From Deltaproteobacteria bacterium (lineage in GTDB: Bacteria > JAGRBM01 > JAHCIT01), in NCBI GenBank assembly GCA_026129095.1, contig JAHCIT010000005.1, forward strand, positions 1 through 64,000: a stretch of 64,000 bases of DNA, given 5' to 3'. Positions 141 to 25,738 of this stretch are shown here, one piece after another. How positions within the stretch are numbered: the first letter of the stretch is position 1; each line of letters starts with the position of its first letter. Both the position numbers and the translations under genes were made by a program. The notes beneath the pieces are model-generated. The model did no database searches, was not told where the DNA came from, and saw only the letters and a program-made list of their open reading frames with translations.

Positions 141-1073
141 ATGAATCAGACGGTTCAACGCGCGACGCAAGAACAGCTCACCAAGGTCGACACGAGCGAT
201 AACATTTACAAGGTGGACCTTTGGCTAAAGAGCGCCCCTCAGGGTTACCTTCAAAAGACGCGCTATGGAAAATATGAGGATTGGCCTATCGAAGAAAATC
301 CTCTCCTTTTCCAAGACGGAGATCTGCGTGACCAGCAGCTGATGATGCTGGCGCACTTCGTTGTGGGTGAAAGGGCGGCGCTTTTCTCGGCAGCTGGCTG
401 CATCCCACGGGAGCCCGATCATGCTGCTCGGGGCTTCCTTTCGACTCAGACCGCGGACGAGGGCCGTCATGTGGAAGTATTCTCACAGCGGCTGTTTGAC
501 CTTGGCGTGCGCAAGGATCAGTTCGAGAGTTTTCTCGATACTTGGACGAACCCGCACCTCAAGAACTTCTGCCTGGCGCTGGACGATCTGGTGAAGAACG
601 GGGATTACGTTGCCGCCATTGTCGGCAATAACATTATCCTGGAAGGTCTCGCTTTCAGCGTTTTCGAGTTCTCCAGAGGGATGAGCAAGTTTAGCGATCC
701 CGTGGGTGAACAGGTGCTCTGCGGCGTGATCGCTGATGAACGCCGGCATGTGGGATTTGGCGAAAACCATCTGGCAAAGCTGATCGCCCGTTATCCGGAA
801 AGCCGTGCAAAAGTTCAGGCCGCACAGAAAGAGTTGACAGGTTTCATGTTCGCAAGTTTCAAGAGCATGCTGAAAACTTTTGGCCGGACGATGGAGCGGA
901 CGATCGGGGAGTACAAGGAGGTGCTCGGGGATTTCGAGCCTTACCCTGGAATTAAGCTGTCGCAGGCCAAAGCGGATACCTTGATGGATGCTATGTGGAA
1001 TAAAATGGAAGGTGAATTCAAAGGCCGGCTCCATCGGCTCGGTGTCGAGTATCAAGAACCCTACGCAAGCTGA
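141..1073 (+). CDS. Ferritin-like di-iron oxygenase (R2-like/VlmB-like)
   Basis: The 310-aa protein shows the four-helix di-iron carboxylate ligand pattern: E77, E107-x2-H110, about E168 and E200-x2-H203, the last in an ADERRH motif. That spacing is typical of ribonucleotide-reductase R2-like and N-oxygenase/ligand-oxidase families, which activate O2 to hydroxylate or desaturate substrates. There is no signal peptide, so it is probably cytosolic. The start follows AAGGAG (127-132) with 8 bases spacing. It is the first gene of a unit continuing with UbiB, COQ4 and another di-iron protein. A COQ7-like hydroxylase role is possible by context, but the sequence is not COQ7-like in length. The substrate is unknown. 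Confidence 0.75.
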   Translation: MNQTVQRATQEQLTKVDTSDNIYKVDLWLKSAPQGYLQKTRYGKYEDWPIEENPLLFQDGDLRDQQLMMLAHFVVGERAALFSAAGCIPREPDHAARGFLSTQTADEGRHVEVFSQRLFDLGVRKDQFESFLDTWTNPHLKNFCLALDDLVKNGDYVAAIVGNNIILEGLAFSVFEFSRGMSKFSDPVGEQVLCGVIADERRHVGFGENHLAKLIARYPESRAKVQAAQKELTGFMFASFKSMLKTFGRTMERTIGEYKEVLGDFEPYPGIKLSQAKADTLMDAMWNKMEGEFKGRLHRLGVEYQEPYAS

Positions 1074-1215
1074 GTGGCGGCATATTTTGGTCCTGGAGGC
1101 GGCCGGGCTCGGACACTACTGTTTCTTCGGAAAGCTTCCTGAAGGCCTTTGGTGCATTCCGCGCCGTCTCACATGAGGCAGTGCCATGGTTTGATATCCA
1201 TAGCTTGGAGACCAG

Positions 1216-3435
1216 ATGAGCAAGTTCCAGAAGGGCCCGAACGTAGAAGACTGGGAACCCGGCAGAAACAAACCGGTTGATGCGCCGCCGGACGATCGGG
1301 AGAGCGTCCCGCCGGTGAGAGTCGTATCCGTAGGTAGAACCTCTGGAGTTTCGGGAGCGTGGAGGCCCAAGCCGCTCAAGATCCCGCCCCCTTCGCGGAT
1401 ACCCACTCATGTGGGTGATGCGCCAACAGCGCCGGAGATAGACATCGAGGGCACAGTCGAGCACCGGGCATTTGACGGTCCGTTACCGATCGACCGGTCG
1501 AAGTGGCAGACATCGGTCTCCGAAAAGGAAGAAGTCGCGGGCAGGATGCGGGTGGAGGCGCCACCGGCGCCGCCGAAAATGGTGCCTCGTCCCGAGGTCG
1601 AACCGGCTGTGGAAGTAGCCGCACCGGCGGACACGGCCGAAACAGGCCGCCGCGAGCCACATGATCACGAGGAAGAGATCATTATCGAGCAGAAGCGGCC
1701 TATTGCGGGAAAAGCCAGCAAGTACGGCCAACTTTGCGATCCGGATGCCTTGTCGGTGCTCGAAAAGCCGAACTACTCGGGAATTCCTGCCGATCCTGAA
1801 ATAAAGATTCCCCGGAATCTCCGGCCGAACCCGGCGAGGCTCTCGGAAATCCTCGGCACTCTGGCGAAGCATGGGATATTCATGCAGGTCGAACGGATGC
1901 TCGATCACCCGAAGGACCGAGCCTTTGCCCGGCGGTTACGAATGGCGTTCGAGGAACTCGGGCCCACGTTTATCAAGCTGGGGCAGATGATTGCTTCAAG
2001 TCCGGGGATATTCCCCGAAACGATATCCGACGAATTCCTCAAGTGCCTCGACAGGGTCCCTCCGTTCCCATATTCCGAAGTAAAGAGAATCCTCCGGGAA
2101 GAACTGGGAGACGACTATAAGTCCAGGTTCCGAAATATCGACGTCAAACCCATCGCCGCTGCCAGCATCGCGCAGGTTCATTTCGCGGAACTGGCGGACG
2201 GAACGCCAGTGGTAATTAAAGTACAGCGGCCGGGCATCAAGGCGGTTGTCGAACGTGACGTCGGCATCTTGTTCCTGATCGCCAAGATGCTGGTCCGGTT
2301 TTTCAGGAACGCCCACCTGGCAAGTCCCGTGGACGTCGTATCGGACTTCAACATAACGCTTCATGAAGAACTCGATTTCCGTCTTGAAGCGAACAGCATG
2401 GAAAAGTTTAACGCCGTGTTCGCGTCGGCGGGGAATAAAAGAATCTACGCGGCGAAGGTCCACCGCGAACATTCGACCAGGCGTGTGCTTGTAATGGAGC
2501 GGCTGTCCGGGGCCCGAGTCGATGATATAAAGGGCATCCGCAAGCTTGGAGCCGATCCGGAAGACGCACTCCGCCTTGGTGTTAAGGCTGTGCTCAGGAC
2601 CATGATGCTCCACGGTTTCTTCCATGGGGACGTGCATGCTGGAAATCTGCTCATCACGCCCGATAACGGGGTCCACTTTATGGATTTCGGCATCGTCGGT
2701 CGTCAATCCGTGGAGAAGAGCAAGCTGATGACGCACCTGCTCGTTTCCATGATGGCGGGTACTTACGAAAATCTGTCTGACGTTCTTATCAAGCTTGGAT
2801 CTGCCCCCGAAAATGTCAATCGTTCGGGGCTGACGAGTGACATCAAGAATCTAATGAGAGAATTTAAAGACTCGCCGCTGGGTGAAATTAACTTTGGCGA
2901 TCTTCTGACCTCGATCGTGCAGGCCGCGGTGAAGAACAACGTGAGGCTGCCGAGGGAATTCATTCTCCTGGTGAAACAGATGGTCTATTTCGACCGTTAT
3001 GCACATCTGCTGGCGCCCGATCTGAACATATTTGAGGATCGTTTCCTGATCGACTTCCTCTGGCGGGATCCGCAGGGACGAGAGCGGTATCCGCAGATGC
3101 AGATGATCGGGATGTTACAGAACGTGAGATCCGTCAAAGACCTGCGGAATAACAAACAGCGTTCGTTCAACGAGCTGCCGGAACGGTATCGTGGCCGGTA
3201 CCGCTATATGGATGGCACGCCAATTACTCCAAACGAATTGCAATGCGTAGTATGCAACATTGTCATTATCGCAAAACGCCCGTTCCAGGCTGGCGACCGT
3301 GCTTTTTGCCAACCGTGCGGAACGAAGATGGTGGTGATTGAGAAAGACGGCAAACTTACCGCCGAACCTATTTATTCACCAGATGCCCAAGCGGTGTTCC
3401 AGGTTACGGAAAACCTGCAGGATTTTGCCCAATAA
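1216..3435 (+). CDS. UbiB/ABC1 (AarF) atypical kinase with N-terminal extension and C-terminal zinc ribbon
   Basis: The 739-aa protein is longer than usual UbiB/COQ8 proteins (about 450-550 aa). Residues 1-185 are low-complexity, rich in Pro, Glu and Arg, and probably disordered. The family core follows: a KxGQ-type motif (FIKLGQ, near 252), the Ala-rich nucleotide loop (AAASIAQVH, near 315), a Lys at about 335, HGDVHAGN (near 472) and MDFG. The C-terminus has two CxxC pairs about 22 residues apart (CVVC and CQPC, near 677-701), a likely zinc ribbon. COQ8/UbiB proteins are ATPases that help extract or present lipid intermediates to membrane hydroxylases. A COQ4 homologue follows 29 bases later, supporting such a role. 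No terminal TM helix like that of UbiB is seen. Confidence 0.85.
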   Translation: MSKFQKGPNVEDWEPGRNKPVDAPPDDRESVPPVRVVSVGRTSGVSGAWRPKPLKIPPPSRIPTHVGDAPTAPEIDIEGTVEHRAFDGPLPIDRSKWQTSVSEKEEVAGRMRVEAPPAPPKMVPRPEVEPAVEVAAPADTAETGRREPHDHEEEIIIEQKRPIAGKASKYGQLCDPDALSVLEKPNYSGIPADPEIKIPRNLRPNPARLSEILGTLAKHGIFMQVERMLDHPKDRAFARRLRMAFEELGPTFIKLGQMIASSPGIFPETISDEFLKCLDRVPPFPYSEVKRILREELGDDYKSRFRNIDVKPIAAASIAQVHFAELADGTPVVIKVQRPGIKAVVERDVGILFLIAKMLVRFFRNAHLASPVDVVSDFNITLHEELDFRLEANSMEKFNAVFASAGNKRIYAAKVHREHSTRRVLVMERLSGARVDDIKGIRKLGADPEDALRLGVKAVLRTMMLHGFFHGDVHAGNLLITPDNGVHFMDFGIVGRQSVEKSKLMTHLLVSMMAGTYENLSDVLIKLGSAPENVNRSGLTSDIKNLMREFKDSPLGEINFGDLLTSIVQAAVKNNVRLPREFILLVKQMVYFDRYAHLLAPDLNIFEDRFLIDFLWRDPQGRERYPQMQMIGMLQNVRSVKDLRNNKQRSFNELPERYRGRYRYMDGTPITPNELQCVVCNIVIIAKRPFQAGDRAFCQPCGTKMVVIEKDGKLTAEPIYSPDAQAVFQVTENLQDFAQ

Positions 3436-3464
3436 TTGATAATAAAAATAGAGGAGCGACAAAG

Positions 3465-4190
3465 ATGAAAAGTCAAAATCCATATGCTCTCCGACCTTTT
3501 CAGGCCTTGGACGCGGTCCATAAGGGAATCCAGAATCCTGACGACACAAAGCAGGCCGCCCGGATGGTTGAGGCAGTTCAGGGGCGAGCGCCGCTGCGGA
3601 TGCTCCGGCGGGTTCGGAGGAATCCTCTGGGACGGAAACTCCTTGCGGAAAAGCCGGATCTCCTTGCCGCACTCCAAGACGCCCAGTGGCTCGCCTCTCT
3701 TCCCGAGGGGACGCTAGGCAGGAGTTATTACGAATTTTGCCGCCGGGAAAAGCTGACGCCCGGAGGGCTATACAAAGCGGTTGAGGATGGATTTGACCGG
3801 GAACGGTTTGAGATGCTTGGCGAAGATGAAAAATTTCTCCAGATGTGGATGCGGGATACTCACGATCTATTCCACGTCGTCACCGGCTACCAGACTGATC
3901 TACTCGGCGAAATAAGCGTGCTGGCGTTCAGTGCGGTCCAGACCCGCAACCCGGGCGTTTGGTTCATGGTTCTGGCTGGAGCGTGCATTCTGGCCCAGCG
4001 GCGAATGATCAACCCGACGCTATTGATGGGGGCCCTTCGGATGGGTATTCGGGCACGAAACGTGGTTGTTACGGACTGGAAAGGTATGCTGTCACTGCCG
4101 CTTGAAGAGGTAAGAAACCGTCTGAACATAACTCCGGCCCCCGCATACGTACCGCTGTATACGAGTCTCGTCCGGATGGAAGTGGCCTGA
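3465..4190 (+). CDS. COQ4 family protein
   Basis: This 241-aa protein contains the signature HDxxH-x11-E exactly: H133, D134, H137 and E149. In COQ4 this motif binds a divalent metal, and COQ4 has been linked to oxidative decarboxylation of the coenzyme Q head group at C1 and to organising the COQ complex. The start follows GAGGAG (3451-3456). It lies between UbiB and a ferritin-like gene, with no other ring-modification gene in the window. That suggests a COQ4 paralogue recruited to a non-ubiquinone or modified-quinone substrate. The family call is firm; the substrate is inference. Confidence 0.88.
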   Translation: MKSQNPYALRPFQALDAVHKGIQNPDDTKQAARMVEAVQGRAPLRMLRRVRRNPLGRKLLAEKPDLLAALQDAQWLASLPEGTLGRSYYEFCRREKLTPGGLYKAVEDGFDRERFEMLGEDEKFLQMWMRDTHDLFHVVTGYQTDLLGEISVLAFSAVQTRNPGVWFMVLAGACILAQRRMINPTLLMGALRMGIRARNVVVTDWKGMLSLPLEEVRNRLNITPAPAYVPLYTSLVRMEVA

Positions 4191-4235
4191 TATCTGTTCA
4201 CAAGAGGACTCACTCTTCCTAGCAGGAGTTACTAT

Positions 4236-5123
4236 ATGAATGTAAATATCGAACATCTGCTAGATCTTTCGAAAAAAGGACAGTGGTCGGTGAAGGACTA
4301 TGACTGGGCTACGCCGATCCGCGATACCGACGATCTCGGGCCGCGTGAACGCAGGATGCTGGGTCTAGTCTTCCTTTTCACGGCCGGTGTGGAGAAGTTG
4401 GGAGCCGAGGCATTTCGGATCAATGCCAAGAATACCCGGGATTCCGACGTACGGGAATTGTTCGAAATCATAGCCAGTGACGAAGACCGTCATGCCGCTG
4501 CGGAAACGCTTCTGGCAGAGCGATTGGGTGTCGAGTGGGAGGACCTTTCCCCTTTGATCAGGATGGCTTTCAAGAAGCTATCCCGTGATTTACGGCAGAT
4601 GCAAGATTGTCCCTCCCGTGCCTCCCGGGTTTTCCACGAGATCGTCGGAACCCAGATCATTCTGTTCGAACTTGCTCTGGACGCACTCTGGAGTCCGACG
4701 ATCAAGGAAATGATGCGGGATCCGTTCCAGGATGAAATAATCCGCCTGATTGATCGGGATGAGTCGCGCCATCTCGCAATGGATTACTGGCTTCTGGATC
4801 AGAAGGGCTTGGGGTATCACCGGGCGAATCTTAGTCCCGCCGGGATTCTGCTGAACCTGCCTATTCGATTGCCGTCCGCGCTCCTTGGCGGGACGGCATT
4901 TCTCACATTTTTCTGGAAAATGAGAAGCTTGAATATAAATTCGGCTCGCTTCCAGGACTACTGGGACCGGGTGATTGATATCCCCACAAAGGCACCAAAT
5001 GCCCGATGTTTCCCCGTGCACCGGAATACGGTCGAAATACTCCAGCAAACCATCGATTTCCTCAGTGGCCATGACTATTTATTTCGCGGTTTCATGCTCG
5101 GCGTGACTGGCCGGCTGGTCTAG
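4236..5123 (+). CDS. Ferritin-like di-iron protein, second type
   Basis: The 295-aa protein has ferritin-superfamily helices with GVEKLGAEAF (near 51-60), E83-x2-H86 (SDEDRH), a helix with E135/E145, and E176-x2-H179 (RDESRH). These could supply a di-iron site as in COQ7, rubrerythrin or desaturase-like proteins. It is not similar in sequence to the first gene, so the two are not a recent duplication. Residues about 205-230 are hydrophobic, suggesting membrane contact. The start follows AGGAG (4222-4226). It is the last gene before a 290-base gap holding an IS21-type end. A hydroxylase acting with COQ4 and UbiB is plausible but unproven. Confidence 0.65.
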   Translation: MNVNIEHLLDLSKKGQWSVKDYDWATPIRDTDDLGPRERRMLGLVFLFTAGVEKLGAEAFRINAKNTRDSDVRELFEIIASDEDRHAAAETLLAERLGVEWEDLSPLIRMAFKKLSRDLRQMQDCPSRASRVFHEIVGTQIILFELALDALWSPTIKEMMRDPFQDEIIRLIDRDESRHLAMDYWLLDQKGLGYHRANLSPAGILLNLPIRLPSALLGGTAFLTFFWKMRSLNINSARFQDYWDRVIDIPTKAPNARCFPVHRNTVEILQQTIDFLSGHDYLFRGFMLGVTGRLV

Positions 5124-5133
5124 TGACCTCAAA

Positions 5134-5200
5134 CCCGGTCACCGGAATCCACATTTAACCACTGCCCGGGTGGTACATTTTTACTCCGCCCTGCCGGTAT
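5134..5200 (-). repeat. Solitary IS21-type terminal repeat
   Basis: These 66-67 bases match the reverse complement of 15405-15471 over their whole length with about 10-12 differences and one indel. They share ACCGGAATCCACATT and ACTCCGCCCTGCCGGTA. The partner copy is the downstream end of the IS21 remnant at 15.4 kb. No transposase lies here, so this is a solo end left by deletion or recombination. Confidence 0.7.
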
Positions 5201-5305
5201 ACTATTAGTCCGACATTGGCGCAGGTCATATAACTCGTTGTAATTATTAGTTATGTTAGTATATTTAATAATATGCTATAAAATATACTTAATGCACTCT
5301 TCTCA

Positions 5306-5336
5306 TTGACAGGCTGAAGCTATTAAGACATATATA
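5306..5336 (+). promoter_or_regulatory. Putative promoter of the second transcription unit
   Basis: TTGACA (5306-5311) precedes TATATA (5331-5336) with a 19-base spacer, or CATATA with 17. It lies in a very AT-rich stretch about 75 bases before the next start codon. Just upstream, AGTATATTT (5258-5266) and AAATATACT (5281-5289) form an inverted repeat that may be a regulator site. Confidence 0.45.
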
Positions 5337-5411
5337 TCTTTATCAGTTTGGTGGGGTCGGCAAAGGTAAATTTGCCCTGAGTCAATCACTCAACATAAGA
5401 GGACAAAAAAC

Positions 5412-6275
5412 ATGGAAGTGAAGCCTATATCTATTGATCGCCATCCTCGGCGTTCACTGCGCAAAACACACGATATCCCAATCCGTAAATTTGACTTCCC
5501 TATCAAGCGGGAAGGGGATTATGCCTTTCCCGACCGTCCTGCAGAATCGCACTTTCTGCACATCCTGTCTCTGTTTTTCCCGGAGGGAGAGCGCTTCTTC
5601 GTCGACTCGGTGATGAATTACCGCGATCAGATCAAGGACGAGAAGCTTCGCCAGCAGATTCGAGGTTTTGCCGGGCAAGAGGCCCAGCACGCAAAGCAGC
5701 ACGCGAAATACAATGACAGAATTGCCAAGCCGCGAATTCGGACGGATTGGCTGGATCCCGTTCAGGATGTACTGTTCAAACTCGCACGGAAGCTGCCCAA
5801 AAAGGTCCAGCTTGCGGCGACAGTCGGTGCCGAACACTTTACGGCGCTTCTGGCCGACAAGGTCCTTCGACACCCGGAGATCGTCAAAGGTTCCAATCCA
5901 GATCATCAGGCCTTGTGGATGTGGCACGCGGCAGAGGAAACCGAACATAAAGCGGTTGCTTTCGACGTCTATCGGGCAATCGGTGGTGGCTATGTAATTC
6001 GTGTGGCCACAATGACAGCGCTATCAACAGCTCTGGTGCCCGGCATCGCGGGAATGATGATCTATTTCATGGCGGCGGACGAGAAGCTGTTCTCTTTTAA
6101 AGACTGGCGCTCTTTTGGGCAATGGGCTTTCGGGGAGGGCGGAATGTTCTCGGATTTTGTGGGCCCTTTTGTCGCTTTCTACCGGCCGGGTTTTCATCCT
6201 TGGCAACAGGATAACTCTGCCCTCTTGGAGAAATGGAAAGGGCTGCAGGGCAATCAGACGTCGGCCCAGGCATGA
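5412..6275 (+). CDS. PF10118/COG3687-type predicted metal-dependent hydrolase (ferritin-like)
   Basis: The 287-aa protein matches the 'predicted metal-dependent hydrolase' family by its N-terminal DIPIRKFDFP and FFPEGERFF region and by E90-A-Q-H93. Candidate metal ligands are E60, E90-x2-H93, E141 and E176-x2-H179. This is a di-iron-like pattern, so it may really be an oxygenase-type four-helix protein rather than a hydrolase. Residues about 200-225 are hydrophobic. The family often occurs beside flavin monooxygenases and SDRs, as here. The start follows AGAGGA. It opens the second unit of the cluster. The biochemical activity is unknown. Confidence 0.75.
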   Translation: MEVKPISIDRHPRRSLRKTHDIPIRKFDFPIKREGDYAFPDRPAESHFLHILSLFFPEGERFFVDSVMNYRDQIKDEKLRQQIRGFAGQEAQHAKQHAKYNDRIAKPRIRTDWLDPVQDVLFKLARKLPKKVQLAATVGAEHFTALLADKVLRHPEIVKGSNPDHQALWMWHAAEETEHKAVAFDVYRAIGGGYVIRVATMTALSTALVPGIAGMMIYFMAADEKLFSFKDWRSFGQWAFGEGGMFSDFVGPFVAFYRPGFHPWQQDNSALLEKWKGLQGNQTSAQA

Positions 6276-6362
6276 ATTCCCCCAATATTGGACGGCGAAT
6301 AACTTATGCAGTGGAGGCGATTTTGACACAATCCACGGCAGTATTTAGGGAGCTGAATTATC

Positions 6363-7430
6363 ATGGCGACCACAAAGAAGAATGGTAGCTCAAAACAGCC
6401 GGTGGCCGGAAGTCGCCGGAAGGACGGCTTGGTGCATGCTTCTCCCCGTACCGTAGCCGTCACGGGGTCGTCGGGCAGCCTCGGTGAGGCGGTCATAGAT
6501 CAACTGCTCCGGAGTTTTCCAAAGGTTAAGGTCGTCGCTCTCGATATTGCGCAGCCGCATAGGAATCACGAACCGGAACGATTCAAGTTTATCAAGAGAG
6601 ATGTACGTGACGTGACCCTACAGAAAACTCTAAAGGGCGTGGACGCCGTTATTCATCTTGCATTTATCGTGGACAAGACCGGCGGTCTTACGCCGAAGGA
6701 GATCGAATCTATCAACCTGGATGGTACCCGGAATGTATTCCTGTCGGGGGCGGCAGCCGGGGTAAAGCAGTTCGTCTACGCGTCTTCAGTGGCTGCTTAC
6801 GGGATGCACGCCGATGTAGCGGGCGAACTTCTCACCGAAGAAGCACCGCTTCGCGGGAATCCGGACTTCTTCTACTCGGATCACAAGGCGCGGGTGGAGA
6901 AATGGATCGACGGTTTTGAGAAAGACCGCCCCGGGATTCGTGTCGCACGGCTGCGGCCGTCGATATTCTTAGGTGAGCGTTCCCCGACACGGCCCGTCCG
7001 AATGCTGGCCTATACACCAGTTATACCGTCCATCCGGGGTTTCGATCACGTACGGTTTCAAATCGCCCATGAAGAAGATATCGCCGACGCGTTTTGCGTC
7101 GCTTTCGCTAGCAACGCCCATGGTGCGTTCAATTTAGCCGCTGAAGGAACGCTTAGTCTGCCGGAGATAGCCGCCGAGATGGGCAAGTGGACCTTCCCGC
7201 TTCCGAAGTCGGTTCTCACGATTGGTGCCGTCGCCTACCGTCTCGGCCTTTCACCATGGGACCCGGACTGGCTGATCAAGGCGTCAAGGGCGAATGTCGC
7301 CATGTCCACGGAAAAGGCTCTTAAGGATCTCGGATGGAATCCTCGTTATCGCACGGCTGGTGATGTGCTCCGGGCCGTAGTCGGTGGGAGGCGCACTCCC
7401 CCACAGCCTGTGAAGCTGGCTCAGGCATAA
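6363..7430 (+). CDS. NAD(P)-dependent epimerase/dehydratase-type SDR
   Basis: This is a 355-aa extended SDR. After about 28 basic residues comes the Rossmann motif VTGSSGSLGEAV (TGxxGxxG), then RDVRD (cofactor-side Asp), an ASSVAAYG strand and the catalytic YSDHK (YxxxK). Extended SDRs oxidise or reduce hydroxyl groups on sugars, sterols or lipids. The neighbours point to a lipid or terpenoid substrate rather than a nucleotide sugar. The start follows GGGAG (6349-6353), 87 bases after the previous gene, so co-transcription is likely. The basic N-terminal extension is unusual and could be a membrane-surface anchor or an over-called start. Confidence 0.82.
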   Translation: MATTKKNGSSKQPVAGSRRKDGLVHASPRTVAVTGSSGSLGEAVIDQLLRSFPKVKVVALDIAQPHRNHEPERFKFIKRDVRDVTLQKTLKGVDAVIHLAFIVDKTGGLTPKEIESINLDGTRNVFLSGAAAGVKQFVYASSVAAYGMHADVAGELLTEEAPLRGNPDFFYSDHKARVEKWIDGFEKDRPGIRVARLRPSIFLGERSPTRPVRMLAYTPVIPSIRGFDHVRFQIAHEEDIADAFCVAFASNAHGAFNLAAEGTLSLPEIAAEMGKWTFPLPKSVLTIGAVAYRLGLSPWDPDWLIKASRANVAMSTEKALKDLGWNPRYRTAGDVLRAVVGGRRTPPQPVKLAQA

Positions 7431-7585
7431 ACGCGTAGGATAACCAACTGTTATCTGTAGGTCTTTGACTCATAAGTCTGTCGTGCGCCGTGGCTCAATT
7501 CTACCTATCGGATATTCGATTCCGGTGTTCACTGAAGACCTAACCGGCATGCGTCCGTGAAGAAGAAATCTGGAAGAAAGAGTCT

Positions 7586-9055
7586 ATGCTCGCCTTCGGT
7601 TTCGCATCCACCCATCCGGTAACGATAAGGCAGATACTCGATTTCACCCGCTGGGAAGTAAGTCTCGCGAAAGACCGATCGCGACGGCCGCATCGGCTTA
7701 CATCTGTCCAATTCGACCAGGTCCGTTATCTGCTCAATTTTTCACGACTGACCCGATTCCGGCCGGGTTCCGCTCGGATCCCGCTGGTGAGCGGCGCAAT
7801 CCGGCCTGAAGCTGACGTGTCCCAGCAGATTACAAATTTACGGAACCGGGTGCACCAGATATTTTCGGTGGCATTCCCAATGGGACGAATCCGCTATGGT
7901 GTGCTGATAAAGGGTGTGCACGAACTCTGGAAAGATATGGCGCAGCTTCGAGGCCAAGTGCTTCGGCACCATTCCGACGAGTTTTCCGAGGAAGAACTAG
8001 ATGCGGAAATCTGCCAGAAAACCTGGGTGAGTGTCGCAGGCGGTGGCGGCGGAGCCGGGTATGTCTATCTCGGCGCCTATATGGAAATGCATGAGGCTGG
8101 ACTCATTCCCGGCTATATTGTCGGATCCTCCATCGGAAGTATCATGGGGCTTCTGCGAGCCCGCAATCGCATTCCAGATTTTCAGCAGATTCTAGACCTC
8201 TCCTATTCGTTGAGAAGGGATAGTCTCCTGCGTGTGATCAGCATGAAGCGTAGATACGGCATGCCGGGTTTGTTCAGGCTGTATCTCCGTGGCGGAATTA
8301 GTCCACATTTTTCAGGATCTGGCGGCACACCCATGCGGCTTACGGATCTGGAAATTCCGTATGAAGCCGTTGTCGCCGGTATTCCAAGAGGCGCCCTTCG
8401 CGAATCGATGGATGACCTGGATCGTGATTTTTATCCGTACGCCGGTCAGGTTCCTGCCTGGAAAATTCGGGCGAAGATCGCGGAACAATTCGTCAAACTA
8501 ATGGGCTACCTGAACCCGCTGCTTTGCAAGGAGATACTGATCGGTTCCACTCCGCTTACCAGGGATTTTGACGCGGTAGATGCAGTTGGTTTCTCTTCCG
8601 CAGTGCCAGGAATTATCCATTATGACGTAACACGGGAAGATCCTCGGATGCACGACATCCTCTCGAGTCTCTTTCGCCAGGAAGACCTAGCAGCACTTGT
8701 GGACGGTGGAGTAGCCAACAACGTTGCCTGCCGGACTGCGTTCCAACGTGTGATGGAGGGGAACATCGGCACCCGGAATGCATTGATAATCGGATTTGAT
8801 TGCTTCGCGCCCAAAATTCTGCAAGACCAGCATCTTTATCCCATTCAGGCTGTCGTGCAACTTCAGGTAGCACTTAACCGGCCATATGCGGCGACGATCA
8901 TAAATTTTCCCAGAACTCTGTCCCCTTTCAATGTCATGCCTTCGCGGGTCGAAATTGACTGGTCTGTCGATGAGGGCCGACGCGTAATAGGCAGGGAACT
9001 GGAGTGGATCAGACTTATTATGAGTCCTGCCAAATTCGTTCGGGAAATTTTCTGA
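7586..9055 (+). CDS. Patatin-like phospholipase/esterase
   Basis: In this 489-aa protein the patatin core begins near residue 150 with a Gly-rich oxyanion loop (GGGGGAGYVYLG), then GxSxG (GSSIGS, nucleophile Ser about 182) and the catalytic Asp in DGG (about 372-374). The first 150 residues are a long basic helical region unlike small patatins and may bind membranes. The family hydrolyses acyl esters of lipids. It lies 155 bases after the SDR gene and ends 22 bases before the convergent ABC1 gene. It could hydrolyse the ester made by the Baeyer-Villiger enzyme encoded downstream, which is inference from gene content. Confidence 0.82.
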   Translation: MLAFGFASTHPVTIRQILDFTRWEVSLAKDRSRRPHRLTSVQFDQVRYLLNFSRLTRFRPGSARIPLVSGAIRPEADVSQQITNLRNRVHQIFSVAFPMGRIRYGVLIKGVHELWKDMAQLRGQVLRHHSDEFSEEELDAEICQKTWVSVAGGGGGAGYVYLGAYMEMHEAGLIPGYIVGSSIGSIMGLLRARNRIPDFQQILDLSYSLRRDSLLRVISMKRRYGMPGLFRLYLRGGISPHFSGSGGTPMRLTDLEIPYEAVVAGIPRGALRESMDDLDRDFYPYAGQVPAWKIRAKIAEQFVKLMGYLNPLLCKEILIGSTPLTRDFDAVDAVGFSSAVPGIIHYDVTREDPRMHDILSSLFRQEDLAALVDGGVANNVACRTAFQRVMEGNIGTRNALIIGFDCFAPKILQDQHLYPIQAVVQLQVALNRPYAATIINFPRTLSPFNVMPSRVEIDWSVDEGRRVIGRELEWIRLIMSPAKFVREIF

Positions 9056-9077
9056 GTTTCAGTCGCACCATCTCGTG

Positions 9078-10487
9078 CTATGCGGTGGTCGCGCGCTGTT
9101 CCGTGGTAGCTTTGCTAGATAATACGCTGAGGTAGGTTATCGCAATCGGCAGAAAATCGACCTTCGGCATATGCAATTCGAGAGGTACCGGCGCGGTGGC
9201 GAGTACGCGGGCGAGCAGCGCGTAATGATGGGGAACGGACACTATCCGATGTTCATCGTTCAGGGCCACGAATTCCGCAGTCATTTCCGAGAGATTATTC
9301 CGTAACAGATCGATCAGGCTGGTGCCATCCCGGAAAAATCCCAGTATCTCGTCAGTTATCCGGATCCCTTGTCTGACCCACAGATCGAACGATTCACGCG
9401 TCTGGAGCCGGGTCCGGAACCCCTGGTTCCAAAGTGCATCAGTAATCTGATCATGTTGACGCGTCAGATAGCCGTTAACCACGCGAACTACGTCGGTCCG
9501 AAAACCTTCCGGGAAATCCTTGGTGCATCCAAAGTCGAGCATGACCAAAGTCGCGGTGGATCCTGAGGATCCCGGCGTCTCATCGAGCACCATGAAATTA
9601 CCAGGATGCGTATCGGCTTGGAAGAAGCCGTAGTATGAAATCGTGAAAAACAGACATTCGACCAAGCAGCGGAATATCCAGTTCTTTTTATCAGTTGGAA
9701 CCTGCGGATCGGAGTACCAGGGAACGATCTTGCGTGCCTGGATAAATTCCATGCAAAGAATAGCATCGCGGCAATACTCTTCATAAAGGCGCGGTACAAC
9801 GACCATTCTGCGGTCCCTCAGCCCTTTAAGCTGCTCGTACATCCGGATCTGATTCCGGGCCTCGTTGCGATAATCGAGTTCAAGATGGATGTGGGTCGTA
9901 AACTCGTCGATCAATACTGAAAATTCAATGCCTGACGATTCGCGATAAAATCCCCATTCGAGGATTTTGACGAAAATAGGCAGCATAAGCCGGACAACCT
10001 TGATGTCAGCGAAAAAGAACTTGTCGATTCCAGGATATTTGACCTTGATGACGGCTTCCCGGCCGTCTTGGAGCGTGACGCGATGGACTTGTCCGATGGA
10101 AGCACATGCCAGAGGGACTGGATCGAATTTCGCGAACACCTCTTCGGCCGGCTTGCCATACTGTTCGATAATCCGCTGGCGAACCTCCTTCTCGGAGGCT
10201 GTAGGCATCTGATCCTGCATTTTGACCATCTCCATCAGATATTGCGTGGGAAGAAATGCAGCCTGAGTGGAGAGGAACTGTCCGATTTTGATATACACGC
10301 CCTTAAGACGGACAAAATCCGCATAAAGCCGCTGGGCATTTCGGCTATGCAGGGCGTCCATCTTTTCCCGCCGAATCCCTTTCGGTGTACGACGATATGT
10401 CACAAGCCCAAACCACACGTAGCTGGCGAGTATCTTTGAGAATAATAAAACAGCAATGACCGCGCGGATTGAGCGGAATTTTAGCAT
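9078..10487 (-). CDS. Second UbiB/ABC1 atypical kinase
   Basis: Starting at the ATG preceded by GGAGGAAAGGA, the protein has 469 aa and opens with a hydrophobic segment (about 8-30) that may anchor it. Family motifs are KIGQ (VYIKIGQF), the nucleotide loop as ACASIGQVH (Cys replacing one Ala of the usual AAAS), KVKYPG, HPGN and LDFG. It diverges strongly from the UbiB at 1216-3435 and lacks its long N-terminus and zinc ribbon. An in-frame ATG 29 codons upstream exists but has a weaker ribosome site. It faces the patatin gene tail to tail and is divergent from the MBL gene, the only minus-strand gene in this cluster. Confidence 0.85.
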   Translation of the reverse strand: MLKFRSIRAVIAVLLFSKILASYVWFGLVTYRRTPKGIRREKMDALHSRNAQRLYADFVRLKGVYIKIGQFLSTQAAFLPTQYLMEMVKMQDQMPTASEKEVRQRIIEQYGKPAEEVFAKFDPVPLACASIGQVHRVTLQDGREAVIKVKYPGIDKFFFADIKVVRLMLPIFVKILEWGFYRESSGIEFSVLIDEFTTHIHLELDYRNEARNQIRMYEQLKGLRDRRMVVVPRLYEEYCRDAILCMEFIQARKIVPWYSDPQVPTDKKNWIFRCLVECLFFTISYYGFFQADTHPGNFMVLDETPGSSGSTATLVMLDFGCTKDFPEGFRTDVVRVVNGYLTRQHDQITDALWNQGFRTRLQTRESFDLWVRQGIRITDEILGFFRDGTSLIDLLRNNLSEMTAEFVALNDEHRIVSVPHHYALLARVLATAPVPLELHMPKVDFLPIAITYLSVLSSKATTEQRATTA

Positions 10488-10756
10488 TTTATCAATTTCC
10501 TTTCCTCCAGACAATAGCCCACCATCAAAGCGGCCAAAGATCGTCATGTCTCCACGGCTCGAAGGATAGAGCATAATATAAATTTAATACTAGACATACT
10601 AGCATAGTTATTGCTATATTTGCCGAGGGGCGTGAGCTAAGAGCATTGTCTTTTAATAGGTCTAGGGGCCCAGATTGTGCAATTGGGCCACAAAGGCGTG
10701 GGCTTTACCTGTAGAAGATTTCGCAAGGGATTTGGTTATAAGGCATCGAAGAATAA
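10488..10756. promoter_or_regulatory. Divergent intergenic region, AT-rich core
   Basis: This 270-base region separates two divergent genes. Its core (about 10575-10625) is strongly AT-rich, with TATAAATTTAAT-like stretches and two ACTAG copies 11 bases apart (10590s). It probably holds back-to-back promoters and a shared operator. No ORF or RNA gene is recognisable. Confidence 0.35.
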
Positions 10757-11884
10757 ATGGAAGATTTCTCCGCCGTCGGCAACTCGATTCGTGAAATATT
10801 TCCGGGATTGTTTCGCATCCGCCTTCCTCAGCCACGATATGGAAGCGTATACGTGCATCTAGCGAAAGGCGGCTCTGGGCCCCTGACACTCTTCGACGCC
10901 GGCCTGCCACACCCTCTGACACAGAACGCCCTGCGTCGGCATCTGGGTGAGTTGGACGTTTCGGTCTCCGACTTAGAACAAATTGTCTATACTCACTCCC
11001 ACATAGATCACATGGGCGGCGGTTCAGTCATATCCGGCCTGACGGATAGGCCCAAGCATATCGCTTTTCAGGGTTGTTTAGGAGTTTGCGAAGACTATCA
11101 AGAGTACAACCGCAGGGCTAGTTCCTGGAAATCGCTGATTCAGCACCTGAGCTATACGCCAGGTATGAAGGACCGGATTGTTCAGCTTTTGCCGATAGAA
11201 TCTCGCGCGAAAGGGAATCTGCTGGATGGGAATATTTCGGTAGAAGACGCAGACCAAACCTATCATCTCTTCGATAAGGGGGCAGCCGAAATCAGGTTCG
11301 ACCGGGGCATTTCGGATGGAGATTCGTTTGAGGCAGGCCCCTATGCATGGTCCGTGATCGAAACCCCGGGACACAATCCGCATCATGTCGTATTGGTAGA
11401 ATCGGAAAACCGCTTTTCGGTTACCGGGGATATGATCCTGGATCACGGAACGCCGATTATGCGTTCCATGGGAGACGACGTGTCCGTATATCTCGCGTCC
11501 CTGCTAAAACTGAGGCGGACCGTACTGGGAACCGCGCTCACGTCGCACGGGTGCGTGTTTCCAGACGGTAATACCGCACTTTGTCGTGTGCTGGAGGAGC
11601 GCGAAGCGTTACTCGAGTGGGTATGGGCGGCGATACAGGACAGGCCTCAACGTCTGGTGGATATTTCGATGGCGGCCGGCGCGGCGGGAGTCGCAGGGAA
11701 AAAAGTAAATCCTATGTTGCTCATGGGTGTGCTTGATTCTGCGGTACATGTCTGGTCCGAACGGGGAGCGGTCTGGGTTGATCCATCTAACGGAATAGTG
11801 TCGATCAAATCCGACAAATGGGGTAGCTCCGCGGATGCTGAAGCGATGATTCCGCTCGATGAAGAACGTCCCAATATCGCGTAA
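10757..11884 (+). CDS. Metallo-beta-lactamase-fold hydrolase
   Basis: The 375-aa protein carries the MBL metal motif HSHIDH (HxHxDH, residues about 80-85), followed by later ligands in PGHNPHH (about 202-208) and TGDMILDH (about 222-229). These would form a binuclear Zn/Fe site. The C-terminal 120 residues resemble the helical, winged-helix-like cap of MBL-fold thioesterases and lactonases. Possible reactions are thioester, lactone or sulfonate ester hydrolysis. A lactone or ester made by the Baeyer-Villiger gene is an attractive substrate. The ribosome site is weak (AAGG at 10740). It starts a four-gene unit ending at 15375. Confidence 0.8.
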   Translation: MEDFSAVGNSIREIFPGLFRIRLPQPRYGSVYVHLAKGGSGPLTLFDAGLPHPLTQNALRRHLGELDVSVSDLEQIVYTHSHIDHMGGGSVISGLTDRPKHIAFQGCLGVCEDYQEYNRRASSWKSLIQHLSYTPGMKDRIVQLLPIESRAKGNLLDGNISVEDADQTYHLFDKGAAEIRFDRGISDGDSFEAGPYAWSVIETPGHNPHHVVLVESENRFSVTGDMILDHGTPIMRSMGDDVSVYLASLLKLRRTVLGTALTSHGCVFPDGNTALCRVLEEREALLEWVWAAIQDRPQRLVDISMAAGAAGVAGKKVNPMLLMGVLDSAVHVWSERGAVWVDPSNGIVSIKSDKWGSSADAEAMIPLDEERPNIA

Positions 11885-11904
11885 CTTGATAAGGATCGGG
11901 TCAC

Positions 11905-12360
11905 ATGAATGAGAAGCTAACCAAAGACTTGATGGAAAAATTTAACCCTCAGCTGGCTTCGGCGATCCAGTCGGCTAATAACGCAATGGCCGGGCTGCCC
12001 AAATTTCTCGGATGCAGAGTGACCGAACTTACACCGGGCAGGCTCATGGCCAATCTTCCGGTCCGCAAAGAACTGCTGACGCCTATTGGGAATTTGCATG
12101 GAGGTGTCCTTGCCGGGTTTGTCGACCACATTCTCGGGGTTGTGCTTTATCCCGTCATGAAGCCGGGACAATGGGCGGCTACCACCGAATTCAAGCTGAA
12201 CTATCTCGCGCCAATCAAAGACGGGGTTCTGCTGGCGGAGTCGTCGGTGATTGCGATGACACGAAATACGGCTGTTGTGCGGGCGGAAGTTTCCAATGGG
12301 GAACGCCTCGTCTGTGCAGCCCAAGGCACGTTGCTGATTAGAGATCCGAAGGGCTCCTGA
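11905..12360 (+). CDS. PaaI-type hot-dog thioesterase
   Basis: This 151-aa single hot-dog domain contains NLHGGVLAGFVDH, the PaaI-type HGG(x)nD active-site helix, followed by strands typical of acyl-CoA thioesterases (TTEFKLNYL, AVVRAEV). It would hydrolyse an acyl-CoA and free CoA, which fits a fatty or aromatic acid product. AAGGA precedes the start by 10 bases, and the gene begins 20 bases after the MBL gene, so the two are surely co-transcribed. Confidence 0.85.
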   Translation: MNEKLTKDLMEKFNPQLASAIQSANNAMAGLPKFLGCRVTELTPGRLMANLPVRKELLTPIGNLHGGVLAGFVDHILGVVLYPVMKPGQWAATTEFKLNYLAPIKDGVLLAESSVIAMTRNTAVVRAEVSNGERLVCAAQGTLLIRDPKGS

Positions 12361-12386
12361 AGTTTAATCGCAGGGAGACAGTCTCA

Positions 12387-13736
12387 ATGGCAATCAGTGG
12401 ATTGAAGAGTCTGGTACAGCCAGCAATGGATTCGTTTGATTCTGGGAAGTCACGGCCGTTGGAGTGGCGTCAGCGCCAGCTTACAGGGATTATCCGTTTC
12501 TGTTTCAATCGTCGCCAGGAAATTCTGGCGGCCCTGCGCGACGATCTCGGAAAACCCACGAGGGAGGCTGTCGCTGCGGATATTGGGGCATCGATTATCG
12601 AAGCAGTCACTCTCAAGATGAATCTTCGGAAGTGGGCAAAGCGGGAACGGGTGTCCACACCTTTCCCCCTGCTTCCCGCCAACAGCTATATCGAAAAGGA
12701 ACCATTCGGAGTCGTGCTGATTATCGGAGCCTGGAACTATCCACTCCAGCTGACTCTACTGCCCTTGGCCGGAGCTGTTGCTGCGGGCAATTGTGCGATT
12801 ATCAAGCCTTCCGAAGTTGCACCTCGTACGTCGGAACTTCTCTCACGGGTACTCCCGGACTTCATCGATTCCGACTGCATCAGGGTGGTCGAGGGGGGGC
12901 CGGACGTGACCAGCCAGCTGTTGCAGGAACCGTTCGATTACATTTTCTATACAGGAAGCGGGGCGATCGGAAAGATCGTCATGAGGGCGGCTGCAGAGCG
13001 CTTGATACCGGTAACCCTTGAGCTGGGCGGCAAGAGTCCGTGTCTGGTGGATAGGGATATCAGTATTCAGGTGGCTGCCAAACGGATAGCGCTCGGCAAA
13101 TGGATGAACGCTGGGCAGACCTGCATCGCGCCGGACTACGTTCTCGTCCACCAACAGGCTGAAGGCCGTTTGCTCGAAGCGCTAAGAGGCACGATACAGT
13201 CGTTTTATGGAAACAATCCGCAGAAAAGTCCGAATTACGCACGGATCGTCAATAAAAAGCATTTCGACCGGATTTCGAAATTCCTAAAAGATGGGAAAGT
13301 AGTGATCGGCGGGGAAAGCGACCCGAAAGACTGCTATATTGCGCCGACTGTCATCCGCGTTACCGATGGTAATGCACCGGTCATGCAGGAGGAGGTTTTC
13401 GGCCCTCTACTGCCGGTCATGGCGGTGCGTGACATGGAAGAAGCAATTGCGTTCGTTCGCTCCCGACCGAAACCCCTTGCCCTGTATCTTTTTTCAAACA
13501 ACACGGATGTTCAGCAACGCGTGATCGCCAAGACATCCGCAGGTGGAGTCTGTATCAATCATACGGTTCTTCACGCGGGAAATCCGAACCTTCCTTTCGG
13601 CGGCGTTGGAGCGAGCGGTATCGGTGCCTATCACGGACGTCGCACCTTCGAGACGTTCACGCACCGAAAACCCGTACTCGAGAAGCCAGTATTTCCGGAT
13701 TTCAGTTTCATGTACCCAAAAGAAAAGTCGGATTAA
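12387..13736 (+). CDS. Aldehyde dehydrogenase, ALDH3-like
   Basis: The 449-aa length matches the class 3 (fatty/aromatic aldehyde) group, shorter than class 1/2. The general base Glu lies in LELGGKSP (about 212) and the catalytic Cys in AGQTCIAPD (about 246). GSGAIGK is the cofactor loop and LPFGGVGASG is conserved near the C-terminus. It oxidises aldehydes to acids with NAD(P). AGGGAGA precedes the start and the gap to the thioesterase is 26 bases. In this cluster it would finish oxidation of an alcohol/aldehyde released by the esterases. Confidence 0.92.
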   Translation: MAISGLKSLVQPAMDSFDSGKSRPLEWRQRQLTGIIRFCFNRRQEILAALRDDLGKPTREAVAADIGASIIEAVTLKMNLRKWAKRERVSTPFPLLPANSYIEKEPFGVVLIIGAWNYPLQLTLLPLAGAVAAGNCAIIKPSEVAPRTSELLSRVLPDFIDSDCIRVVEGGPDVTSQLLQEPFDYIFYTGSGAIGKIVMRAAAERLIPVTLELGGKSPCLVDRDISIQVAAKRIALGKWMNAGQTCIAPDYVLVHQQAEGRLLEALRGTIQSFYGNNPQKSPNYARIVNKKHFDRISKFLKDGKVVIGGESDPKDCYIAPTVIRVTDGNAPVMQEEVFGPLLPVMAVRDMEEAIAFVRSRPKPLALYLFSNNTDVQQRVIAKTSAGGVCINHTVLHAGNPNLPFGGVGASGIGAYHGRRTFETFTHRKPVLEKPVFPDFSFMYPKEKSD

Positions 13737-13851
13737 GGGGCAGAGTAAATTAGCGTCATCTCAAAATAGCCATCAACGAATTGAGGCTTAGAGGGTCCAG
13801 CTCGCGGGAAAATATGCAGTTGTCCGAGTCGAATTACGAAAGGCGGTTGAC

Positions 13852-15375
13852 ATGCAGAGCCAAGATTTCGATGTTCTAATTATCGGTGCAGGAATCTCTG
13901 GGATCGGAGCGGCCTGCCATTTAAGCCGCGAATGCCCGAACAGGCGGGTCGCCATCATCGAAAGGCGCAAGGCCATGGGCGGGACGTGGGATCTGTTTCG
14001 TTATCCGGGTATCCGCTCTGATTCCGATATGTTTACCTTTGGCTACAACTTCCGGCCTTGGACCAACCCGAAGACGCTGGCCGACGGTCCATCGATCAAG
14101 CGATACGTCATGGATGCCGCGCGAGAGAGTGGGGTCGACAAGAAAATCCACTACGGCTTGAGCGTGACCGGTGCCTTCTGGAACAGTAAGGACCAGCAGT
14201 GGACGATCGAAACACTGAGGGAAGAAAATGGCGAGGTCCAGAGCTATACATGCAGCTTTCTGCTGATTTGTACGGGGTATTACAATTACGACAAGGGCTA
14301 TAAGCCAGACTTTCCGGGGGAAAAGGACTTTGAGGGCCGGGTAATCCATCCCCAGCAGTGGCCCGAGGATCTAGACTACAGCGGCAAGCGTGTAGTCGTC
14401 ATCGGCAGCGGCGCGACGGCCGTCACTCTGATCCCGGCAATGGCAGATAAGACCTCACACATTACCATGTTGCAGCGGTCGCCGACATACATGATGTCGC
14501 TTCCGGAAGTGGACCCGATCGCCTCGCGACTGATGGGCTTGCTGCCCGAAATGGCGACCTACCGTATCATGCGCGCGCGCAATATCGCCCTGCAGTACTG
14601 GTCGTTCGTGATTTCGCGGAAATATCCCAAGCAGGCGCGCGAGCTATTTCTGGCTCTGGCCCGTTGGCAGCTTGGCAAGGACATCGACATGCGCCATTTC
14701 ACTCCTAGCTACAATCCATGGGATGAACGCATCTGCGCGATGCCTGGAGGCGATCTGTTCAAGGCTATACGTAGTGGTCGCGCCTCGATTGTGACTGATA
14801 AAATAAAGACCTTTATTCCGAACGGGATATTATTGGAGTCGGGAAAGGAGCTGGAGGCCGACATCATAGTCTCAGCCACCGGCCTGGACCTGCAGTTCCT
14901 AGGCGGTATGAAACTTACTGTCGACGGAAAGGTTCGCCTTCCCAGGGAAGCGATGCTGTACAAGAGTGTGCTGCTCGAAGGCATTCCCAATGCTTCGATC
15001 GTGATCGGCTATACCAACGCCTCGTGGACGCTGCGGGCGGATCTGGCGGCCGAGTACCTTTGTCGCCTGCTCAACCACATGGACAAGAAGGGCTACGCCG
15101 TAGTGACGCCCGTTGACCGCGAGGGGTGCCGGACCGAGGAATCGGTCATGGGATCATTGAAGTCGGGCTACGTCTACCGTGCCATCGATAAGATGCCCCG
15201 TCAGGGTAGGCACGGCCCGTGGAAACTCACCCACAACTACTATCGGGACATTCTGATGCTGCGCAAGGGAGTGATCGAGGACCAGTATCTGGAGTTCTCG
15301 CGGGCGAAGTCCCCGATGTCACGTAGTCTTACATTGCATGAGATGGTCGATCGTGTCACAAAAGCCGCGGGGTGA
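13852..15375 (+). CDS. Flavin-containing monooxygenase of Baeyer-Villiger type
   Basis: This 507-aa protein has an FAD Rossmann motif (GAGISGIG, 10-17), an NADPH Rossmann motif (VIGSGATA, near 184) and, between them, FEGRVIHPQQWP (near 159-170). The last exactly fits the BVMO fingerprint FxGxxxHxxxW(P/D). Type I BVMOs insert oxygen next to a ketone, giving an ester or lactone; relatives also oxidise sulfur. AAGG precedes the ATG. The 115-base gap from the ALDH gene still fits one operon. It ends 29 bases before the IS21 remnant, which marks the edge of the cluster. Confidence 0.9.
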   Translation: MQSQDFDVLIIGAGISGIGAACHLSRECPNRRVAIIERRKAMGGTWDLFRYPGIRSDSDMFTFGYNFRPWTNPKTLADGPSIKRYVMDAARESGVDKKIHYGLSVTGAFWNSKDQQWTIETLREENGEVQSYTCSFLLICTGYYNYDKGYKPDFPGEKDFEGRVIHPQQWPEDLDYSGKRVVVIGSGATAVTLIPAMADKTSHITMLQRSPTYMMSLPEVDPIASRLMGLLPEMATYRIMRARNIALQYWSFVISRKYPKQARELFLALARWQLGKDIDMRHFTPSYNPWDERICAMPGGDLFKAIRSGRASIVTDKIKTFIPNGILLESGKELEADIIVSATGLDLQFLGGMKLTVDGKVRLPREAMLYKSVLLEGIPNASIVIGYTNASWTLRADLAAEYLCRLLNHMDKKGYAVVTPVDREGCRTEESVMGSLKSGYVYRAIDKMPRQGRHGPWKLTHNYYRDILMLRKGVIEDQYLEFSRAKSPMSRSLTLHEMVDRVTKAAG

Positions 15376-16188: not shown

Positions 16189-16386
16189 TTAGCGGTTTTC
16201 CTCTTCCAGCGCATTCAGACGCATTGCATCCGACACTTCCAGCCCGCCGCAATTCGCTTTCCACCGGTACAACGTGCCTGCGCTGATCCCGTGGCGGCGG
16301 GTGATGTCCTCTACCGCCGTCCCGGCCTCATGCTCCTTCAGGATTCCAATGACCTGCTCTTCGCTAAAACGGCTTTTCTTCACCGT
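16189..16386 (-). pseudogene. IS3 orfA remnant (HTH protein)
   Basis: KKSRFSEEQVIGILKEHEAG, an HTH (ITRRHGISAGTLYRWK) and ALEEENR are typical OrfA. An in-frame TAA interrupts it after EEENR. Beyond that stop the same frame continues recognisably (LRQLVVNRALDLQAARAI), so the stop is a mutation inside the gene. Confidence 0.8.
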
Positions 16387-16484
16387 CGTCTCCAGTTCCA
16401 AAGCTGTCCGCCATTGAACCACGGCGGACAGGTCAGGCCGGTTTCTTTCATTATACGACGGACCGGAACGGTGGGTACGGGTCA

Positions 16485-16713
16485 GGTCGTCATCCAGAAT
16501 CCCATCGATGACCCCGGTATACGCCGCCAGCTTCGGCTTCGCCGTCGGTTCCTTTCGGCAGTAGCCCGGCGAAACCGAAAACATCAGTATCTCCCTCACC
16601 GTATTCCGGTGAACCCCGAACCGGCTCGGCGCTTCACGGCCGCTTAATCTCTCAACCTGACACGCCCGTCTAATCCTCGCATACAACTCCACTTTGTACA
16701 TCTCCCTGGACAC
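16485..16713 (-). pseudogene. istA: istA N-terminal fragment (IS21 transposase)
   Basis: The fragment begins MSREMYKVELYARIRRAC and has an HTH (SRFGVHRNTVREIL) and YTGVIDGILDDD, the start of IstA. It is cut after about 75 of roughly 500 residues at the IS3 end (16484). It lies 60-80 bases inside the IS21 terminal repeat, the normal place for istA. Confidence 0.85.
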
Positions 16714-25719: not shown

Positions 25720-25738
25720 AACGCAGGGTATAAGAATC

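Follow-up and report, generated by a model that had tools for sequence, protein, structure and literature searches.

A COQ4, UbiB and di-iron protein gene island beside Baeyer-Villiger-type oxidation genes: a candidate lipid-oxidation locus outside ubiquinone synthesis

COQ4, the COQ8/UbiB proteins and di-iron hydroxylases constitute the ubiquinone toolkit. The roles of COQ8/UbiB and COQ4 are a long-standing question and are hard to disentangle from the rest of the ubiquinone complex. Here we analyze a gene island in which members of these families stand beside genes of lipid oxidation. It comprises twelve open reading frames (ORFs) between positions 141 and 15375 of a 64,000-nucleotide stretch from a Deltaproteobacteria bacterium (JAHCIT010000005.1, assembly GCA_026129095.1, positions 1-64,000 of the forward strand; hereafter the window), separated by small gaps and without internal stops. 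We read the island as a locus for the oxygen-dependent oxidation and cleavage of a very hydrophobic, membrane-resident lipid, in which UbiB and COQ4 would act outside ubiquinone synthesis; we give this reading about an even chance of being right. Our literature searches found no paper that links COQ4 to clusters with Baeyer-Villiger monooxygenases (BVMOs), or that connects COQ4, UbiB and ferritin-like proteins; the family PF10118, which is represented in the island, turned up in one paper.

The coenzyme Q (CoQ) biosynthetic complex, with COQ4, COQ8/UbiB and COQ7-type proteins, resembles the island in its COQ4 and ABC1 families and their motifs, in the accompanying di-iron proteins and in the hydrophobic substrate to be expected. 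Human COQ4 has been reported to exchange a carboxyl for a hydroxyl group on CoQ precursors, as an oxidative decarboxylase, and COQ8 may help to draw intermediates out of the membrane (PMC11495197). For Alr8543, a homologue of COQ4, a first model contained geranylgeranyl monophosphate and a later one oleic acid (PMC9774615). In contrast to the complex, the island belongs to a host in which UbiA/COQ2 was not found, its di-iron proteins are similar to VlmB, aldehyde-deformylating oxygenases (ADO) and R2lox rather than to COQ7, its first UbiB protein has an additional ribbon domain, and its neighbours are catabolic. A second point of comparison is VlmB, a di-iron oxygenase that produces azoxy compounds (PMC11705231), together with cyanobacterial ADO. 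Their fold and ligand pattern recur in the first protein of the island, FLP1, but the structure match has only about 23-25% identity, and in place of VlmO or an acyl-ACP (acyl carrier protein) reductase, FLP1 has COQ4 and a ribbon fused to UbiB as partners.

The COQ4 protein of the island (3465..4190; all genes are on the + strand unless noted) matched PF05019 with 101.9 bits (4.1e-29; gathering score 22.9) and, in a profile search, the structure of Alr8543 (6e12, 3.8e-26). Its metal motif is exact (HDxxH-x11-E, HDLFHVVTGYQTDLLGE, residues 133-149), and the H, D, H and E are invariant in an alignment of nine sequences. In the host genome (3.67 Mb, 96.65% complete), COQ4 has three matches and there are twelve full ABC1/UbiB proteins; the first-pass annotation of the window saw two of the twelve, those in the island. 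Five COQ4 are present in the genome of G001, the sole relative from the same order that we compared, which belongs to a different family.

We found two proteins of the UbiA superfamily in the host: the heme O synthase CtaB (271 bits, cut-off 210) and one closest to 1,4-dihydroxy-2-naphthoate polyprenyltransferases (MenA). A UbiA-type (4-hydroxybenzoate) prenyltransferase was found neither in the host genome nor among the classifiable superfamily proteins of G001, which are CtaB and MenA-type, with one further member that could not be assigned. MenD scored above its cut-off in G001, with no match over the cut-off in the host; no futalosine genes were recognised among the ORFs read around the host MenA, although no profile search was aimed at them. 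By its gene content the host appears to use menaquinone, and the multiplication of COQ4 and UbiB in a genome without detectable UbiA is an unusual expansion. Because UbiA was not found, a MenA-type enzyme is present and there are three COQ4 and twelve UbiB proteins, the sequence evidence supports an employment of COQ4 and UbiB outside ubiquinone synthesis, as the first-pass annotation had proposed; its concern that the island might be the organism's only ubiquinone set is not borne out by the superfamily members that could be classified. At L014 in the host, and again at L016 in G001, a second type of COQ4 adjoins a TetR regulator, an alpha/beta hydrolase and a short-chain dehydrogenase/reductase (SDR); this is a further conserved COQ4 context without ubiquinone genes.

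Both UbiB proteins of the island, UbiB1 (1216..3435) and UbiB2 (9078..10574, - strand), matched PF03109 (216 bits, 7.5e-64, and 185 bits, 1.7e-54, respectively) and retain the KxGQ motif, the Ala-rich loop and the DFG motif, with KxGQ at 254 and DFG at 490 in UbiB1. Neither reached the cut-off of the UbiB equivalog TIGR01982 (328.7 and 193.7 bits; cut-off 487.55), so that by sequence they are classed as UbiB-family proteins, not as orthologous UbiB. UbiB1 ends in a zinc-ribbon-like CxxC...CxxC domain (about residues 641-739, 3136..3435; Cys 677/680/698/701), which no Pfam family above its cut-off covers. In myxococcotal genomes, this domain is found as a separate small protein downstream of FLP1 and FLP1', a shorter FLP1 paralogue, with 38-42% identity to the UbiB1 ribbon; an alignment of 20 sequences gave the common motifs FxEVPxxYR..YR, NE, CxxC, GD and CxxC. 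The unit FLP1 - FLP1' - small CxxC...CxxC protein was present in 16 of the 34 FLP1 loci read, whereas in the window and in G001 the domain is fused to UbiB. Since the ribbon stands alone beside FLP1 in some genomes and is fused to UbiB in others, UbiB1 probably works with FLP1, gene fusion being classic evidence of a functional tie.

A link of FLP1 to COQ4 is seen in the same set of loci: at 5 of the 34, the retrieved sequence also contains a COQ4, in every case with the metal motif. One of these (L159/L080) had revealed the family, so that the fair count is 4 of 33. We estimated the chance of such proximity at 6.5e-5 for the five loci including the discovery locus and, in a rough recalculation, at about 1e-3 for the four, figures that depend on the assumed density of COQ4. 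At the discovery locus (L080, PRO3, 6495-10705), FLP1, the ribbon protein, a second di-iron protein (FLPb) and COQ4 follow each other, with a radical SAM (S-adenosylmethionine) protein interposed, and the same set recurs at L229. The next ORFs at L080 resemble nitric oxide reductase and nitrite reductase (named by sight).

FLP1 (141..1073) has the complete ligand set of a di-iron protein (E77, E107xxH110, E168, E200xxH203). The residues are conserved in its homologues, with D in place of E168 in the most diverged copy. In a profile search of solved structures, VlmB was nearest (6d9f, 8wvr; 4.5e-26), followed by R2lox and aldehyde decarbonylase, and the predicted fold, which is moderately reliable (pTM 0.69, mean pLDDT 65), likewise had VlmB as best match (E 1.8e-6), ahead of R2lox and ADO. 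Against the NCBIfam equivalog for ADO (TIGR04059) FLP1 reached only 23.9 bits, far under the cut-off of 222.65. By fold and by its E, ExxH, E, ExxH ligands we regard FLP1 as a VlmB-like protein whose activity is predicted to be that of a di-iron oxidase or oxygenase of the VlmB/ADO/R2lox group. FLP2 (4236..5123) also has a complete set (E53, E83xxH86, E145, E176xxH179), invariant in five homologues, and a weak NCBIfam match to R2lox; its model from the single sequence (pLDDT 38) was useless for structure searches. The third protein of this kind (5412..6275), a predicted metal-dependent hydrolase, matched PF10118 with 270.8 bits (1.6e-80; gathering score 33.2) and its ExxH pairs, at 90 and 176, are of the ferritin-like kind. 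These three had been described as non-homologous di-iron-type proteins. Non-homologous is too strong, as all three weakly match ferritin-like families in Pfam and NCBIfam and seem to have diverged within a single superfamily.

Outside the order, a scan for FLP1 in 386 genomes, mostly of other lineages, found no more than remote members of the superfamily. Orthologues outside the order (about 40% identity) surfaced only in COQ4-bearing genomes, where four of the ten tested had a full-length FLP1 (G386, G387, G389, G390), and then in the phylum of G387 (Myxococcota by tree labels), where 21 of 189 sampled genomes had one.

The remaining genes encode an extended SDR (epimerase or 3beta-hydroxysteroid dehydrogenase-like; 6363..7430; PF01370 6.4e-21, PF01073 1.3e-20), a patatin-like hydrolase with GSSIG at 180 (7586..9055; PF01734 1.4e-14), a metallo-beta-lactamase-fold (MBL) hydrolase with HSHID (10757..11884; PF00753 2.3e-15), a hotdog thioesterase of the 4HBT/PaaI type (11905..12360; PF03061 8.5e-14), an MdlD/ALDH3-like aldehyde dehydrogenase (ALDH; 12387..13736; NCBIfam MdlD 384.7 bits, under the cut-off of 550) and a BVMO (13852..15375). 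The last matched BVMO structures in the PDB (1e-33) over its N-terminal 215 residues and has the fingerprint FxGxxxHxxxW (FEGRVIHPQQWP) at 160 and a dinucleotide-binding GAGISG at 12, which predict a type I Baeyer-Villiger monooxygenase. The Pfam search covered ten of the twelve ORFs, and ALDH and BVMO were checked by NCBIfam and PDB searches; together these confirmed all gene families that had been named from the sequence alone (COQ4, two UbiB, di-iron-type proteins, SDR, patatin, MBL, thioesterase, ALDH and BVMO), and both the COQ4 motif and the BVMO motif FxGxxxHxxxWP are exact.

The island is conserved in G001. Orthologues of ten of its twelve genes, with 47-83% identity, lie within about 34 kb of a single contig (C286), where the order is FLP1-UbiB1-FLP2-COQ4-P450 (83%, 66%, 60% and 64% for the first four), with FLP2 and COQ4 swapped relative to the window. 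Upstream are UbiB2 (68%), MBL (56%), ALDH (62%), thioesterase (75%), BVMO (76%) and the PF10118 protein (47%), the last adjoining the BVMO. Since even the heme O synthases of the two organisms are merely 57% identical, conservation of this gene set is far beyond chance. The first-pass annotation had suggested looking for co-occurrence of COQ4, both UbiB, the PF10118 protein and the BVMO, and these are indeed co-located in the second family, which also speaks against a mere scatter of the genes in relatives. C286 carries two more FLP2 paralogues, one of them directly between ALDH and thioesterase, two more BVMO-like proteins and a cytochrome P450 beside COQ4. The island genes there are interleaved with three genes for acyl-CoA dehydrogenases, one each for an acyl-CoA synthetase and a thiolase, and one for a ChsH2-like protein that has zinc-ribbon and OB domains.

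Comparable gene kinds surround COQ4 in more distant genomes. Among 80 COQ4-bearing loci fetched by name, many from sphingomonads and hyphomonads, and two sphingomonad plasmids (Sphingobium yanoikuyae pF2, Sphingopyxis fribergensis pSfKp5.2), have COQ4 in clusters with a P450, ferredoxin, nitronate monooxygenase, thiolase with DUF35, two acyl-CoA dehydrogenases, acyl-CoA synthetase, a BVMO-like oxidoreductase and a hydrolase. These clusters share gene kinds with the G001 island, and their function is, as far as we searched the literature, likewise undescribed. They differ from the island in having no FLP1 homologue, mostly no UbiB and a COQ4 of about 39% identity. In a tree of 90 COQ4s, 23 from clusters of this or a related P450/BVMO/acyl-CoA dehydrogenase/thiolase type form a single clade. 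A homologue of the thioesterase (57-59%) adjoins COQ4 at four loci (L038, L062, L063, L068), and in Cupriavidus about 1 kb separates COQ4 from a BVMO of 50% identity. Relatives of FLP2 show a further association. In actinobacteria they occur in SDR-FLP2-BVMO operons with PF10118 nearby, as in Mycolicibacterium chubuense (pMYCCH.01) and M. aubagnense (SDR-FLP2-BVMO(-BVMO)-hydrolase), and in Tsukamurella in an SDR-FLP2-oxidoreductase operon. The Mycolicibacterium operons thus unite FLP2-type protein, SDR, BVMO and PF10118 as the island does, but COQ4 and UbiB are not annotated in them and their FLP2 is only about 21-24% identical. Both the beta-oxidation genes of G001 and the clusters of the alphaproteobacterial COQ4 relatives support the proposal that the locus is joined to the catabolism of a hydrophobic substrate.

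On this basis we infer the following steps, whose order and substrate are likewise conjectural. In the core (141-5123), FLP1 would act together with UbiB1 and its fused ribbon domain, and COQ4 and FLP2 would complete the machinery. UbiB may extract or order the lipid, using ATP; COQ4 would bind it, and the HDxxH-x11-E metal site of COQ4 might also serve for its oxidation or decarboxylation; hydroxylation of the lipid would fall to the di-iron proteins. In the cleavage part (5412-15375), the SDR would take the alcohol to a ketone and the BVMO the ketone to an ester or lactone, which the patatin or the MBL hydrolase could open; ALDH would yield the acid and the thioesterase would work on CoA esters. 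The handling of a membrane lipid by UbiB1 and COQ4 for di-iron oxidation appears to be the best-supported portion of this scheme because of the reports on human COQ4 and COQ8 and the lipid models of Alr8543, while the ketone cleavage is proposed from family knowledge and co-location. As a whole, the first interpretation is partly supported. The use of COQ4 and UbiB outside ubiquinone synthesis and their conserved link to lipid-oxidation genes stand; a sterol, terpenoid or long-chain ketone as substrate, the action of the BVMO on the di-iron product and lipid presentation by UbiB/COQ4 are so far proposals.

Several findings weigh against the lipid-oxidation reading. In the COQ4 tree, the copy from the window falls outside the alphaproteobacterial catabolic clade, in a group with two from G001. 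Outside the order, the BVMO part was never found alongside the COQ4/FLP1 part in the genomes tested: a close BVMO is missing from three of the FLP1-bearing genomes (G387, G389, G390) and lies on a separate contig in the fourth (G386). The SDR and the patatin of the window have no match in the G001 island, and as the host has nothing closely similar to the thiolase of G001, a complete degradation route is not established there. Finally, all reactions of the island are predicted from sequence.

The same findings bear on the strongest alternative, that a COQ4/UbiB1/FLP1/FLP2 module and a BVMO-ALDH-thioesterase-MBL ketone-to-acid unit merely adjoin each other in a common low-GC island, with no common pathway. 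The twelve genes are not one operon: UbiB2, on the opposite strand, divides two + strand blocks (141-9055 and 10757-15375). Moreover, FLP1/COQ4 loci outside the order lack a BVMO of the window type, and BVMO homologues (50-58% identity) are widespread on plasmids and secondary replicons. The BVMO half may therefore be a separable unit sharing the island, and the idea of a single pathway, which the co-location of the parts within the host's order favours, becomes one reading among others. Yet both parts stay within 34 kb of one G001 contig despite changed order and orientation, an FLP2 paralogue lies directly between ALDH and thioesterase there, actinobacterial FLP2 relatives are operonic with BVMOs, and the Cupriavidus COQ4 is close to one. 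We consider two unconnected units unlikely, at perhaps one chance in a handful.

The second alternative is a modification of the respiratory quinone, by which UbiB, COQ4 and di-iron hydroxylases would convert a menaquinone precursor or a quinone-like lipid into an unusual hydroxylated quinone. The families are those of the ubiquinone toolkit, human COQ4 acts as an oxidative decarboxylase on CoQ precursors in the report cited above, and the host MenA and a nitrite-oxidoreductase-like operon in the window imply an active respiratory chain. However, the island has neither a methyltransferase nor a prenyltransferase, the genes conserved around it belong to lipid catabolism, relatives of COQ4 are found in catabolic clusters, and FLP1 resembles VlmB/ADO, not COQ7. 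This makes a quinone product improbable to us.

Third, the island could be a biosynthetic cluster whose product is a modified lipid or metabolite; FLP1 would then form an azoxy compound as VlmB does, or an alkane as ADO does. In favour of this, the azoxy synthase VlmB (PMC11705231) and the aldehyde-deformylating oxygenases are the nearest structural relatives of FLP1, and the FLP1-FLP1'-ribbon units of myxococcotal genomes mostly have no recognised catabolic genes nearby. A carrier protein, a synthase or a VlmO/VlmA-type partner is not among the Pfam hits of the island, although no search was aimed at these specifically; beta-oxidation genes are present in the G001 island, and BVMO, ALDH and thioesterase suit degradation. 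We see little prospect for it. That the island is the organism's ubiquinone biosynthesis set, as the family names COQ4 and UbiB would suggest, is largely refuted by the UbiA and MenA results in both genomes and by the two other COQ4 and ten other UbiB genes of the host, and we reject it as very improbable.

If the lipid-oxidation reading holds, it may extend beyond this locus. COQ4, UbiB, a VlmB-like di-iron oxygenase and the shared ribbon could form a general lipid-oxidation machine independent of ubiquinone, with the ubiquinone pathway as one use of an older toolkit and the myxococcotal FLP1-FLP1'-ribbon operon as its undescribed core enzyme; we advance this tentatively and think it somewhat doubtful. 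Here both families are kept without detectable UbiA, in twelve UbiB and three COQ4 copies, and are tied by fusion and co-location to a defined di-iron enzyme. The role of UbiB and COQ4 thereby becomes testable apart from any quinone, and the FLP1-FLP1'-ribbon unit, with its 16 loci in myxococcotal genomes, is a conserved operon that has no name so far.

The window begins with the first base of its contig (C5), and the island may therefore be cut off on its upstream side. The GC content of the island is low in both genomes (0.536 in the host, 0.55-0.56 in G001), compared to about 0.60-0.66 in most other stretches read. Downstream, at 16189-16713, 18643-19944 and 30410-31510, are transposase-like ORFs and an ORF of the tyrosine recombinase/integrase type (named by sight), which together with the low GC content suggest either the edge of the island or an insertion that came later.

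Further along the window, the gene of a copper/heavy-metal P-type ATPase precedes a metal efflux RND (resistance-nodulation-division) set of three genes (20185-29170, named by sight). At the far end (57544-63950, - strand, with the alpha gene running on to position 66209 of the contig) lies the operon of a type II enzyme of the dimethyl sulfoxide reductase family that is close to nitrite oxidoreductase. The C-terminal part of its alpha subunit (full ORF 1161 residues) and its beta subunit matched the nitrite oxidoreductase structure 7b04 in the PDB (1e-201 and 9e-182). The operon also encodes a gamma-like subunit of the heme-b/cytochrome c kind, together with a chaperone and a radical SAM protein. 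It suggests that the host, whose lineage has been sampled sparsely, oxidises nitrite (or reduces nitrate).

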